Below are positions 3,256 through 7,715 of a stretch of 64,000 nucleotides of DNA, in pieces. Each line of letters starts with the position of its first letter. Position 1 is the stretch's first letter. Source of the stretch: Schizochytrium sp. TIO01 (Eukaryota > Sar > Bigyra > Thraustochytrida > Thraustochytriidae); the NCBI GenBank assembly GCA_004764695.1, contig SMSO01000034.1, positions 699,501 through 763,500 on the forward strand, given 5' to 3'. A model generated the notes under the pieces. It searched no databases. It saw only the letters and a list, made by a program, of their open reading frames with translations, and was not told the origin of the DNA. Both the position numbers and the translations under genes were made by a program.

Positions 3256-3259
3256 CTAG
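3256..3259. repeat. CTAG flank of the transposon, left
   Basis: CTAG sits immediately before CCCTGGATA and is matched by CTAG immediately after TATCCAGGG at the right end (7712-7715). It is the likely 4-bp target-site duplication. Because CTAG is a palindrome, it could also be the outermost part of the inverted repeat, or the duplication could be only TA with termini starting GCCC. Confidence 0.6.
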
Positions 3260-3276
3260 CCCTGGATATCGCAAAA

Positions 3277-3301
3277 ACGTAGACAAAAAATGTAGACAAA
3301 T
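3277..3301. repeat. Subterminal GTAGACAAA repeats, left end
   Basis: Two GTAGACAAA-type copies lie just inside the left terminus (CGTAGACAAA, then TGTAGACAAA). Related copies occur at 3504-3535 and, as TTGTCTACG and CGTAGACAA, at 7679-7700 near the right end. Such subterminal motifs are commonly contacted by transposases; the function here is inferred. Confidence 0.6.
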
Positions 3302-3503
3302 CAATACCACCAATTTCTGATGTTTAGGCGCAAATCCCTCAAAATTCTTTAAATTATGTGCCAGCTTGCTAGTTCTGGCCTTGAAGAAGAACATATTCGA
3401 GCTCTGAGCTCTAAAATGATGGTGCTAATGAATAATTGGAGTTTTCGATTTGGCTTTGAACGAAATCAACCGGTCTAAATCCGATTAAAAATGGCTCAAT
3501 TTT

Positions 3504-3535
3504 GTCTACATAAAACGTAGACGTAGACAAATATA
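3504..3535. repeat. Subterminal GTCTAC/GTAGAC cluster
   Basis: TTGTCTACAT is followed by AAAACGTAGACGTAGACAAA. The motif occurs in both orientations and as a close tandem pair, matching the motif at both transposon ends. It lies in the 3' non-coding part of the element. Confidence 0.55.
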
Positions 3536-3656
3536 CCATATTATCCTTAATTAATTTCAAACTGGTTTTGTAAAACCGTCGCATCGGGGATACTTGATCA
3601 AGCTTCGGGAAAATTGGACTCTACATAGATTTTACTATTTAACTCTGGGAGCACCT

Positions 3657-5402
3657 TTACAACTCCTTCAGAAATGAAAAATGTACGTTGGATATAGACT
3701 TAGCCCCTAATTCGTGAAATGTATCGAAGCACTTTTTGCATAATGCAGCATATTGACCTGGATGTATCTCACAGCCTTTGCACTCCTTGGTAGTAGATCT
3801 CCCACGTCGAGAGACGTGATCCTGACTTTTCTCGCACCTAACACAGCAGAGAATGCATGTCCTCCTTGCTGGAGGGGTACCATAAGGCTGATTGCGTGAT
3901 AAAGTGTGCTCATTGTTTGTATTATTTTTCAAACCTTGAAGCAGGTTAAGTAGGACTGATTTTGTTACGTATTTCGATGAGTCTTCATCGTTTTGGGGTG
4001 ATGATTCAATCGCAGAATTGGGATTCGCAGCAACAATATCACAATTCAGGGAAAGTGGGAATTGATTATTCTCATCAAATCGATAACACATTCCTCTGTG
4101 CAAATCTTCTAAGAACACTACAAATGATGTTGTGTTTTTCCTAGCTGTCTGCCATGCATCGAAAGATTTTGCATGAGGAGTAAAAGCTTCGAGACGCGCA
4201 AGTTGATATACACGGAATGCATTATATAGTGTGTAGTCGAGGTAAGTAAGCCAGACTAAAGCTGCAGGCTTCAGCCGACTGGTACGCCGCTTTCGACCTT
4301 CGACGGTCTTCCGAACAATATCAACATTTCCCATGTGGTGATTCCAAACACTACATAACTTCGGTAATATTTTTTTACAGGGTGGCGGTGTCCCATTTGA
4401 TAGTACATCATCATTGTGCCGCCGCCAGAGCTGCAAGTAAACATCAACTGTATGGTGTTCTCTAGCAAAACCATACGACGACGAGTAATCATTACCAAGA
4501 CGGGGAAATGTCCCGAGATGCTCTCCATAGGCAAACTTCATGTACTCATCTGCAAGAGCACCTAAATAGCCTCTCCATTGGTCCCGTTGAGCCTGTGCAA
4601 CTTCAACAAGAACTGCCTGAAGTTCACGCTCAGATGTCGAGTAGATGAGCAAAACTTCTGAAACATCTAACGCACACGCGTGATGAATGATCTGAGCCCT
4701 GTAAGAAGGTTCAGGGACCGCATGTTTGAAAAGTAGAGACCCTGCATGACATTCTACAAACTGGCCAAGCTCACCTACGCGTGCTGCTACTGCAGAAATT
4801 GTATCTGGCGACGTAACAGTCTTGAATTCTAAGGCTGTCGCATCTTGGATAACGTACTCGTCGCCTACTTTACGCGAAATGACCGCAACTCCATCAGGGG
4901 AATCTGCTATAAATGGTACATCTCGGTTAGCAAGAAGTCCGTATGGTCTAATCTCGTGAATTTTGATGTTCTTAGTCGAAACCTTGTAGATGTAGGTCTT
5001 TAATCCTGCAGTAATAACTCTTTCATTCTCTTTGCCTAAACGTAACGGACTTTTGTGAGGTGCAAGACCGTCTCTCCAAGGCGGTATGAACCATAACAAC
5101 ATCAAGGTCTGAAGAAAGCATTGCTGGCGCTGGTAAAAAGATATCTCCGAACTCGTGTCAGAACATCCCACTGGAGTATGCTGCAGATTTTCATGTTGAG
5201 ACAAATTCTGACTGTTGTTAAATTCTTGGGTGCTCTCGTTGATAGCATCTAAATGTAACATATCATTTGGTGTCTGGATTGACAAAGAGTCAGCAACGGA
5301 ACTTTGCGTAGACACTATTTTTAAAGCGGTCGCACTAGCAAGGCGTTCTGCGATATCACGGTTTTTCTCTTCAGGAAGAACCACCTCTCCAGTAAGTTCC
5401 AT
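3657..5402 (-). CDS. Transposon protein, C-terminal block: YqaJ nuclease core plus piggyBac-like C-terminal part
   Basis: This 581-residue block has two parts. Residues about 118-270 form a YqaJ/lambda-exonuclease-like PD-(D/E)xK nuclease: LGKENE (122-127), SPDG with D170, the E-x-K pair at E192/K194, and Y234-x-x-Q237 in the last helix. Residues about 341-405 are piggyBac-like: VWNHHMGNVD with D360, matching the family's GGVD block, then a hydrophobic helix ending in YNAF. The second Asp three residues after GGVD is Arg here. A Cys-rich tail (about 515-557; CxxC pairs, then ECKGC and LCKKC) resembles the piggyBac C-terminal zinc-binding domain. The block is in the same frame as 5493-6833; TGA (5493-5495) and a TAA lie between them. 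In-frame sequence just upstream of M1 remains protein-like, so this ATG is probably not the true start. The domain calls are by eye. Confidence 0.75.
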   Translation of the reverse strand: MELTGEVVLPEEKNRDIAERLASATALKIVSTQSSVADSLSIQTPNDMLHLDAINESTQEFNNSQNLSQHENLQHTPVGCSDTSSEISFYQRQQCFLQTLMLLWFIPPWRDGLAPHKSPLRLGKENERVITAGLKTYIYKVSTKNIKIHEIRPYGLLANRDVPFIADSPDGVAVISRKVGDEYVIQDATALEFKTVTSPDTISAVAARVGELGQFVECHAGSLLFKHAVPEPSYRAQIIHHACALDVSEVLLIYSTSERELQAVLVEVAQAQRDQWRGYLGALADEYMKFAYGEHLGTFPRLGNDYSSSYGFAREHHTVDVYLQLWRRHNDDVLSNGTPPPCKKILPKLCSVWNHHMGNVDIVRKTVEGRKRRTSRLKPAALVWLTYLDYTLYNAFRVYQLARLEAFTPHAKSFDAWQTARKNTTSFVVFLEDLHRGMCYRFDENNQFPLSLNCDIVAANPNSAIESSPQNDEDSSKYVTKSVLLNLLQGLKNNTNNEHTLSRNQPYGTPPARRTCILCCVRCEKSQDHVSRRGRSTTKECKGCEIHPGQYAALCKKCFDTFHELGAKSISNVHFSFLKEL

Positions 5403-5427
5403 TAATTCAGCCGCTAAGTTGACCCTT

Positions 5428-5501
5428 GTTTTACACTTGTTTAACCAGTATTGTGCTTATTGTCTTGTCGCCGTGACTGACTCGTCTGCGCTTCATTCTA
5501 C
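5428..5501 (-). other. Stop-containing gap between transposon blocks, possible 66-nt intron
   Basis: Two in-frame stops (TGA at 5493-5495, then TAA) interrupt an otherwise continuous minus-strand frame. A segment read on the minus strand from GTAGAATGA to GGTTAAACAAG is 66 nt, starts GT, ends AG, begins after a complete codon and would remove both stops while keeping frame. It lacks an obvious pyrimidine tract, so two point nonsense mutations are an equal alternative. The coordinates given bracket the candidate approximately. Confidence 0.35.
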
Positions 5502-6833
5502 TTTGTTGGAGCGAGCCAGGTAGATCTGGATCAACTCTCTCAGAAGCGTTTTCAACCGTAATGCGGCGGTTACGGGATTAAGCACTGCAATTTGCAAGAC
5601 ATGAGCATGCATTGTTAGAAGCTCTTCAGAAAATGGAGCAGAAACAAAATTCATACATTGAAATGAGGTTGTGCTCGTTGCGCGGAAAAGTCGTGCTAAA
5701 AACCAGTCTGCAGTCCCTTGTTTCTGTGTCAACCTGATAGTTCGGCTTTCGAGATTACGGAACGCTGCGCTTATTCGGGCTTCAGTGGAGGATTCAGCTG
5801 TCAGAGGTTCGTGGTCTGCAACTGCGTGCTCCAACCTCGAAACACCACCAGGATGAATCTTTTGAACTTGACCATACCCTACTTCAAAAACCCAGTTATG
5901 AACGCCTAATTTTGGATTGTTGGTGACCAACCGAGCAACCCTTGCCTTTCCTTGCCCGTGCCTAGAGATAAGTGCATAGAGATTCTCTCCATGGAATTTT
6001 GCAGTATGTGCGCTCCTTCGACCATTTACCCAAATTATCGCCGACTGTGTAGATGACTGCCGAGTCGTTTTTTCAAGTAGATCTTGGAATGGGAACATGC
6101 GCGTCTGTTTGCATGTCCCTAAAAATGATACGTTTAGATCCTGTAGAATTTGGATGATGTTGGTTCGTGTGTTTTCTTGTTGATACTTAGCAATTGCCAG
6201 GTATCCGCGGTCAATAAAGATAGTAAGATCTCGACTGCAACTTTCCTTGCCTAAATCGTCAGGATGCTCTAACATCAAGTTAACTGACTTCTTCACGATG
6301 TCAGAAACTTTTGTGCGGAGAAATTCCACCCAGCCTTGAAGAATCACACCAGCTCCAACAGAAGCTACGACATGAACAACTGGTTTTCTTTTCTGAGTTT
6401 TTGTTGGGATCAGCCGGATACCAGCTGATTCAAAGTCCGATGAAGAGTGTGGGAGTTTGTCATCATCAAGATCAACCCACATGACACCATTTACAAATAA
6501 CAGCCAATTCCAGTGTCTACTTGCAAGGTCCTGCATTCGTTTTAGATATTTGTCTGCTGTGAATGGAAGGTTTCGTGATGTCTTTTGATGATTGGTCTTT
6601 TCACGGTTATTTTTGCTTGCTTTCCGCATCGCGCTACGCACGCGTCTATATGCGTTGGACGCATCGTCAGGTACTCCTTTACAAACGAATGTACTAGAGC
6701 GGTTCGCCGTTCGACACAAAATCTCGACCTCGATAAACATATGAATGTCACGACGGGAGAATTTGGAGCTCGTGTCATTATTTAACCATTCTAAGAAGGT
6801 ATCGATATAGAGAGGTGGGATACAAACTTGCAT
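5493..6833 (-). CDS. Transposon protein, central block: piggyBac-like transposase core and start of YqaJ domain
   Basis: This 446-residue block reads as the catalytic half of a piggyBac-family transposase. The acidic string WVDLDDDK (119-126), followed by KRKPVVHVVASVGAG, corresponds to the first catalytic-Asp strand and the next strand. LTIFIDRGYLA, with D208, corresponds to the second Asp region (DNFYTS in the family), followed by a helix and FLGTCKQTRMFPF, equivalent to the family's GT-x-R-x-NR string. Residues 368-390 (TQKQGTADWFLARL then RATSTTSF) match the opening helix of YqaJ nucleases, whose core continues in the next block. The nuclease therefore begins before the transposase is finished. 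Upstream of M1 the same frame continues for at least ten sensible codons and overlaps the end of the 6853-7233 frame, which suggests the ATG at 6833 is not the native start. Assignments are by motif; an alignment is needed to fix D1. Confidence 0.72.
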   Translation of the reverse strand: MQVCIPPLYIDTFLEWLNNDTSSKFSRRDIHMFIEVEILCRTANRSSTFVCKGVPDDASNAYRRVRSAMRKASKNNREKTNHQKTSRNLPFTADKYLKRMQDLASRHWNWLLFVNGVMWVDLDDDKLPHSSSDFESAGIRLIPTKTQKRKPVVHVVASVGAGVILQGWVEFLRTKVSDIVKKSVNLMLEHPDDLGKESCSRDLTIFIDRGYLAIAKYQQENTRTNIIQILQDLNVSFLGTCKQTRMFPFQDLLEKTTRQSSTQSAIIWVNGRRSAHTAKFHGENLYALISRHGQGKARVARLVTNNPKLGVHNWVFEVGYGQVQKIHPGGVSRLEHAVADHEPLTAESSTEARISAAFRNLESRTIRLTQKQGTADWFLARLFRATSTTSFQCMNFVSAPFSEELLTMHAHVLQIAVLNPVTAALRLKTLLRELIQIYLARSNKVE

Positions 6834-6852
6834 GGCTTGAAAGGGGCTGATG

Positions 6853-7233
6853 CTATCCTCGCTGGATATATGAAGTTGCTTTCGCCATTCGTGCTAGAAT
6901 AACTTCGCTTTCCATTTGAGTTCTCGATAACAGATCTATGTTATGTGGGCTGTATTCAAGCTCGATTGTGTCCATACTTCGCATAGTTCCACGAAGACCT
7001 TCGTGATACTTGGAGCCATGGGCAGAGAAGGAATCAAATTCCCAGTTACCTTGGCCCTTAGCAACATCAGCTTGGACCGAAGGATCTACTGACATGGATT
7101 GTCCACACATTTCAATTTCAATGTAGCTTTCACTATTGTCACTATCGACACTGTCGTCACTTGACATTGAGGAGGCATCAGAAACTTCGCCACACTCTGA
7201 GACCAAGTCCTTAACCTGCGTACGTGTAGGCAT
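6853..7233 (-). CDS. Transposon protein, acidic N-terminal block
   Basis: About 126 residues from the ATG at 7231-7233; the frame stays open to 7245 but only with a TTG codon. It is Ser/Asp/Glu-rich in its first third, as in the disordered acidic N-termini of piggyBac transposases. Its C-terminus stops at TAG just where the +1 frame takes over in-frame with the block at 6833. A one-base deletion in this copy or +1 recoding at the stop would join the two. No domain is recognised in this part; assignment rests on position, strand and composition. Confidence 0.55.
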   Translation of the reverse strand: MPTRTQVKDLVSECGEVSDASSMSSDDSVDSDNSESYIEIEMCGQSMSVDPSVQADVAKGQGNWEFDSFSAHGSKYHEGLRGTMRSMDTIELEYSPHNIDLLSRTQMESEVILARMAKATSYIQRG

Positions 7234-7245
7234 ATTGACACTCAA

Positions 7246-7711
7246 AAGCTAAAAGATACCTGTATACTCGAAGCCCAAACTAGAATCGCAGCATTAAGGT
7301 GTGGAGGGCGACCGTGTCGAAGATACTACCAGCACTCGCGCAGGATCCCTGGCAGGATACGCAATTGCAAGCAGAAGAGCGCCTAGTAGCATAGTTCGCG
7401 CCCAAAACATATCAGGAGCACTTAACTACCAGGCTAACTACCAGGAGTCTAAAGGAGAAGCAGAGCAGAACCCCATCTTCTGACCCTTGCAAGTCTTCTC
7501 GTCTCGTAAAATTTTCATAGACCAATTGGTGCCATGGTGGGAGCATCCAAGGAAAGTTTGGGCCGTAAAGCTCGAATATTCATGACGAGTTGTAGGGTTG
7601 GCCTATTTCTCAAAAGGTTGTCCACTTTAAACGTGTACAAAAAAATAATCTAATTTCTCCGATCGATAAAACTTTTATTGTCTACGTATTTCGTAGACAA
7701 TTTATCCAGGG
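7246..7711. other. Transposon 5' non-coding region and right terminus
   Basis: This stretch lies upstream of the minus-strand transposon frame and should hold its promoter and leader. It ends with TTGTCTACG and CGTAGACAA (7679-7700), an inverted pair of the subterminal motif, and the terminal TATCCAGGG (7703-7711). I see no clear promoter element. Confidence 0.5.
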
Positions 7712-7715
7712 CTAG
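7712..7715. repeat. CTAG flank of the transposon, right
   Basis: CTAG follows TATCCAGGG directly and mirrors the left flank at 3256-3259. It is read as the target-site duplication. Confidence 0.6.

Follow-up and report, generated by a model that had tools for sequence, protein, structure and literature searches.

Organization of the element at the locus

In this study, a window of 64,000 nucleotides from Schizochytrium sp. TIO01 (contig SMSO01000034.1, positions 699,501 to 763,500 of the forward strand) was analyzed. A DNA transposon of 4,452 bp was located on the minus strand at window positions 3260-7711, with both ends present, CCCTGGATA inverted repeats at the two ends and CTAG on either side. 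A sequence-only reading had described the span 3256-7715 as a YqaJ nuclease domain inside a piggyBac-like transposase, and the limits of this span coincide with the outer edges of the two CTAG duplications that flank the element. The reading frame of the window copy is broken, and its coding sequence is split over three open reading frames (ORFs). The observation was confirmed, and the following order was present: the blocks of the first and second transposase Asp (D1 and D2), the YqaJ opening helix, GxxxE, SPDG, ExK, YxxQ, the GNVD block of the third Asp (D3), the YNAF helix and the Cys-rich tail (Table 1).

Table 1. Positions of the features of the transposon in the window
Feature	Position	Strand	Basis
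Target-site duplication CTAG, element's 3' side	3256..3259	.	sequence
3' terminal inverted repeat (CCCTGGATA read on +)	3260..3268	-	sequence
Third ORF of broken copy, 599 aa: SAP-like segment, YqaJ-like core, D3 helix, Cys-rich tail	3657..5456	-	
Cys-rich tail, like piggyBac zinc tail	3708..3857	-	zf-Tnp_2 in relative L013, E 9.1e-4, below cut-off
Transposase WNHHMGNVD (third Asp) to YNAF helix	4215..4346	-	profile comparison
YqaJ-like nuclease core (GxxxE, SPDG, ExK, RxQ)	4692..5042	-	Pfam YqaJ E 0.049, below cut-off; alignment
Start of SAP-like segment within nuclease (YWLNKC)	5433..5450	-	SAP E 0.068 in L010 counterpart, below cut-off
Second ORF of broken copy, 466 aa: transposase D1 and D2, nuclease opening helix	5493..6893	-	
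Nuclease opening helix (QGTADWFLARL)	5688..5720	-	profile comparison
Second-Asp block IDRGY	6201..6215	-	alignment
First-Asp block LDDDK	6456..6470	-	alignment
First ORF of broken copy, ATG at 7233	6853..7248	-	
25-nt palindrome beside 5' end (element bp 11-35)	7677..7701	-	shuffle test
5' terminal inverted repeat CCCTGGATA	7703..7711	-	
Target-site duplication CTAG, element's 5' side	7712..7715	.	sequence

Intact copies and recent mobility

The window's own genome (64.06 Mb, 37 contigs) was searched with the 599-aa ORF, and 27 matches were obtained. L009 (contig C36) had a stop-free frame of 1,175 codons, 98% identical to the window copy over the matched parts. L010 (C5) had an open frame of 1,176 codons, 41% identical to the window ORF, and six more places were identical to it. 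Counted from the first Met, the proteins were 1,170 aa (L009) and 1,171 aa (L010). Both showed, in a single frame, D1, D2, the YqaJ-like nuclease with a SAP-like interruption, the D3 helix and the Cys-rich tail. Because L009 and L010 carry the whole order in one open frame, the nested order is a real single-polypeptide architecture. With the frame of the window copy broken into three ORFs, the nesting might have been an artefact of reading; the intact copies show otherwise. The claim that the nuclease is nested and not adjacent was thus borne out by intact single ORFs in two subfamilies of about 40% identity and by relatives from other organisms. The search for other copies with the same order, suggested with that claim, returned L009, seven identical L010 copies and five related proteins from other sources.

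The seven L010 copies, of 4,489 bp each, showed 0 differences to L010 and lay on six contigs (C5, C17, C24 twice, C31, C32 and C34). Their duplications were ATAT, TTAT, TTAA, CTAA, TTAT, ATAG and TTAG, and that of L009 was CTAA. A 4-bp duplication was found in 9/9 copies with both ends read, and all were NTAN with TA at the center. L011, a 97.6%-identical copy with a decayed 3' terminus, and the remnants L015-L017, L019, L020, C33:399228 and C31:2011616 were outside this count. For the C17 insertion, an empty counterpart was found on C30; it has one copy of TTAT precisely at the junction, and over 1.6 kb to either side its flanks share about 98% identity with those of the insertion. This counterpart was taken as an alternative allele; a recent duplicate is less likely. 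An empty counterpart of the window insertion site was sought in the genome and not found, and only its own two flanks matched. The identical copies at different places indicate recent movement of the element. A recently active source is indicated by the seven identical copies and by the insertion with an empty counterpart. There was no support for a swarm of short non-autonomous copies: the queries (the 5' 500 bp per subfamily and 170 bp from the 3' end of L010) matched the long copies and a few remnants, which is a lower bound, the window subfamily's 3' end not being among the queries.

The termini were CCCTGG in all nine copies with both ends read, a CCC-type start as in piggyBac. Ends of the piggyBac superfamily start with CCC or CCY. 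The palindrome near the 5' end of the window element had arms of 10 nt, and in 100 shuffles of the first 600 bp the arm was never longer than 9. The 5' palindrome of L010 had arms of 15, with at most 9 in 100 shuffles. Two more strong palindromes lie 242-268 and 514-543 bp from the 3' end of the L010 element; one of them is a near copy of the 5' palindrome, and the ends are asymmetric.

Some further observations were made on the copies and their surroundings. The L010 protein (P0001) also occurred in an outside source, where its contig measured 3,685 bp. The whole element is 4,489 bp long, and the smaller size is what a transcript would show. L015 (C24:5773000-5779500) and L016 (C10:81000-88000) are broken element copies beside the same host ORF, and therefore C10 looks like a second haplotype of C24. 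C17 likewise matches C30, as an apparent second haplotype. Host genes at window positions 17215-56086 include a weak AP2-like match (below cut-off), a reprolysin-type peptidase, ankyrin-DnaJ, Sir2, DSBA-like and bromodomain genes.

Relatives of the element

A single-sequence search of 5.8 billion proteins gave the same protein, P0001, as the sole match. An alignment of four sequences recovered six proteins: P0001, one from a jgi source, one from Hondaea fermentalgiana (a thraustochytrid), two from an lgn source and one from Thalassiosira exigua, which we take to be a diatom. Judged by these relatives, the host would probably be a thraustochytrid-like stramenopile. A nine-member alignment was examined, with L011, L014 and L018 outside it. 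The order was kept, except that P0003 has no D3 region; P0006 ends within the Cys tail. In the family tree, one of seven forks was supported (P0005 with P0006). A virus source was not supported: the scan of viral contigs with the family alignment gave 14 pattern matches, with 0 confirmed.

L012 (C6), L013 (C30) and L014 (C30) each occur at one locus, and their open frames measure 1,243, 1,296 and 1,232 aa. They are related to the transposase and have lost the nuclease motifs. L014 is more diverged than the other two. Within 3.5 kb upstream and 2.6 kb downstream of these loci, no CCC end with a duplication was found, and both positive controls were recovered. They may be domesticated genes or old copies. 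L018 (C36:3999000-4007000) has two neighbouring long ORFs with 27% identity to the transposase and is apparently a very diverged relative.

Similarity of the transposase part to piggyBac

The landmarks of L010 were LDDDK at residue 239, D2 at 326, GT at 357 and WNKMMGGVD at 953. D242 and D2 were kept in 9/9 members, and D3 in 7/9 (lost in L012, its region absent in P0003). The Asn of the WNKMMGGVD block, the counterpart of piggyBac N440, was also kept in 7/9. According to the available part of PMC7351741, N440 touches the hairpin. The last Gly of GG, at the position of piggyBac G445, was kept in just two of the nine. Eight Cys columns were common to the seven members that reach the C-terminal end.

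The family was compared with a piggyBac profile made from 43 of 120 proteins listed, out of 1,191 matches; positions on it follow P0007, whose numbering is 3 ahead of Trichoplusia ni piggyBac. In profile-profile comparison by hhalign, segment 895-1171 matched the D3 region with a score of 58; 8 column shuffles reached no more than 24.2. Residues 946-1049 were aligned on piggyBac 435-522 (E 3.8e-7, probability 92.9). Residues 105-284 on piggyBac 130-312 (E 0.17) and residues 346-363 on 360-378 (E 0.09) were collinear but weak. The three stretches thus align in the same order, and only the D3 region is significant.

Several results weigh against a piggyBac relationship. The N-terminal match is not significant by itself. 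The Pfam piggyBac model (DDE_Tnp_1_7) matched 0/9 members even at E 1, and a plain piggyBac hidden Markov model (HMM) gave at best -0.5 bits, no better than the 0.3 of shuffles. The genome-wide Pfam piggyBac search found three other places and none of the element copies. Profile searches of the PDB listed neither piggyBac nor an exonuclease among the matches. The TTAA specificity of piggyBac was seen at only 1/9 targets. The piggyBac-like assignment of the sequence-only reading was therefore sustained by the D3 region, the 4-bp duplications, the CCC ends and the 5' palindrome, but not by the Pfam model or the target sequence. The element is classed here as piggyBac-like but divergent, and as new in its architecture; an RNase H-like fold is predicted for the transposase.

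The three places recognised by Pfam, L031, L032 and L033, are piggyBac-type frames of 986, 846 and 1,060 codons, with 244-545 codons before the match. Two of the three matches cover almost the entire model in at most 1,200 bases, and therefore have no such insertion.

The nuclease-like part and the SAP-like segment

The opening-helix Trp, the Asp of xDG and RxQ were kept in 9/9 members. The Gly of GxxxE and both ExK residues were kept in 7/9, the exceptions being L012 and L013. GxxxE, xDG, ExK and RxQ occurred together in seven members, including both subfamilies with intact ends; SPDG is replaced by SVDG in P0004. Identity of the members keeping the four motifs to L010 was 27-39%. ExK was lost only in L012 and L013, the members without CCC-type ends found around them.

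The YqaJ profile had nine members: L034, a stand-alone gene of the same genome, and 8 of 40 phage matches listed (199 records matched). The middle segment without the SAP-like part matched this profile in hhalign with E 0.008 and a score of 24.5, the highest score of 8 column shuffles being 15.2. A YqaJ HMM placed the opening helix at the QGTADWFLARL-type block in 7/9 members, with scores hardly above shuffles. The opening helix and the core follow each other as the sequence-only reading held, but about 200 residues, with a weak SAP-like match inside, intervene before GxxxE. A PD-(D/E)xK fold of YqaJ/lambda-exonuclease type is predicted for the middle segment. On our reading of the alignments, the nuclease probably follows the strands of the insertion domain and precedes the D3 helix. 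In piggyBac the insertion domain comprises residues 372-433 and occupies the position in the topology where DDE/D insertion domains are generally found (PMC7351741, available part).

The YqaJ assignment also has results against it. The hhalign probability was just 4.8%, and the untrimmed comparison gave E 0.16 with poor placement. While the motifs persist in 7/9, no member passes the cut-off of Pfam YqaJ (PF09588): the best score was 17.2 bits against 22, and P0004 (E 0.0062) lies below the cut-off like the window ORF. A plain YqaJ HMM gave 3.6 and 2.5 bits, barely higher than the 2.4 of shuffles, and the genome-wide Pfam YqaJ search did not recover the element copies. L013 retains all three transposase Asp though its nuclease motif is lost. 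Between L010 and L011, the ratio of nonsynonymous to synonymous rates was 0.30 in the nuclease region (7 synonymous, 8 nonsynonymous; just 15 changes) and 1.24 in the transposase N-part (4 synonymous, 17 nonsynonymous), in both cases with too few changes to rely on.

L034 (4550-5836, minus, on C36) is an ordinary YqaJ gene (Pfam E 4.4e-22) and matches solved exonucleases and protein R354. Its use to scan viral contigs gave no result.

Proposed mechanism and alternative explanations

Overall, the element is probably best explained as an autonomous DNA transposon that moves by cut and paste, belongs to a divergent piggyBac-like lineage and has a nuclease nested in its transposase. By homology with piggyBac, the D1-D2-D3 core would nick the ends, form and open hairpins and join the target with a 4-nt offset. 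The Cys-rich tail may hold the 5' palindrome, by analogy with piggyBac, in which a dimer of the Cys-rich domain sits on a palindromic repeat (PMC7351741, available part). The YqaJ/lambda-exonuclease-type domain, placed after the insertion-domain strands and ahead of the D3 helix, is expected to be catalytically active, with the SAP-like segment lodged inside it. The nuclease would resect or trim the donor break after its own complex has made it, repair would be copied from the sister or homologue, and the donor site would be refilled. This steering of repair to copying and refilling is a guess, held at a little below even chances. A role in repair choice is preferred because the 4-bp duplication gives complementary overhangs whatever its sequence, and a nuclease is unneeded for joinable ends. 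Somewhat more doubtful is the tentative proposal that built-in end resection at the insertion-domain position couples each excision to recombinational refilling of the donor, which would make the element effectively self-copying.

With the same architecture, the nuclease could act on the ends of the transposon and not on the donor break, by taking off the 4-nt flap or by opening the hairpin. The nuclease adjoins the regions similar to the insertion domain and the D3 helix of piggyBac, in which these parts touch hairpin and target (PMC7351741, available part), and the NTAN targets suggest altered recognition of both. However, piggyBac itself opens its hairpins according to the same text, the three Asp are kept in 7/9 members, and the duplications are clean in every copy read; this explanation is considered unlikely. 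A lower probability still is given to the nuclease fold being retained as a DNA-binding or spacer module in which catalysis is irrelevant. The long open frames of L012 and L013, kept though ExK is gone, fit such a module, but the persistence of the four motifs in seven diverged members argues against it.

The middle segment could also be something other than a YqaJ-type domain, with SPDG, ExK and RxQ coincidental in a lineage-specific insertion. The scores below the Pfam cut-off and the low hhalign probability are consistent with coincidence, whereas the Trp, GxxxE, SPDG, ExK and RxQ stand in canonical order and the HMM places the opening helix at one block in most members; coincidence is improbable. 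Practically negligible is the explanation that two separate genes were fused by pseudogenisation or assembly error. The three frames of the window copy would fit it, but it was ruled out by the single open frame of L009, the seven identical copies on six contigs and the outside proteins.

Comparison with known systems

The nested YqaJ-in-piggyBac arrangement was not found among the matches listed in the open-access literature, as judged from titles and the beginnings of abstracts. Literature on piggyBac of diatoms, thraustochytrids and Phytophthora, or on non-TTAA targets, likewise contained no nested arrangement among the matches listed. In the available part of a 2015 survey (PMC4482050), the functions of extra ORFs such as the separate YqaJ gene of ISL2EU are given as unknown. 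The nuclease within the transposase suggests both activities in one complex, and offers a single protein in which to test this. The NTAN targets beside piggyBac landmarks provide a natural variant for studying the choice of TTAA by piggyBac.

Compared with T. ni piggyBac (PDB 6x67/6x68), the element is alike in the order of D1, D2, the GT block and WN/YN-x(3)-GxVD, and in the 4-bp duplication, CCC ends, palindrome near an end and Cys-rich tail. Unlike piggyBac, it has about 400 residues of nuclease ahead of D3, NTAN targets and no match to the Pfam model. ISL2EU, of the PHIS superfamily and the closest of the systems found, is likewise a transposon coding for a DDE transposase and a YqaJ nuclease. 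As described in the available part of PMC4482050, its YqaJ is a second ORF and its duplications are 2-bp AT, whereas one polypeptide and a 4-bp duplication were found here. KolobokP, of a superfamily that duplicates TTAA, also has an added nuclease. According to the available part of PMC9587614, this is a His-Me finger nuclease downstream of a Kolobok transposase, and Kolobok ends are 5'-RR; the present element differs in its CCC ends and its nested, YqaJ-like nuclease. The YqaJ/lambda-exonuclease family (Pfam PF09588) shares W, GxxxE, SPDG, ExK and Q in order with the nuclease described here, which differs from that family in having a SAP-like segment that interrupts it and a transposase around it, and in scoring below the Pfam cut-off.

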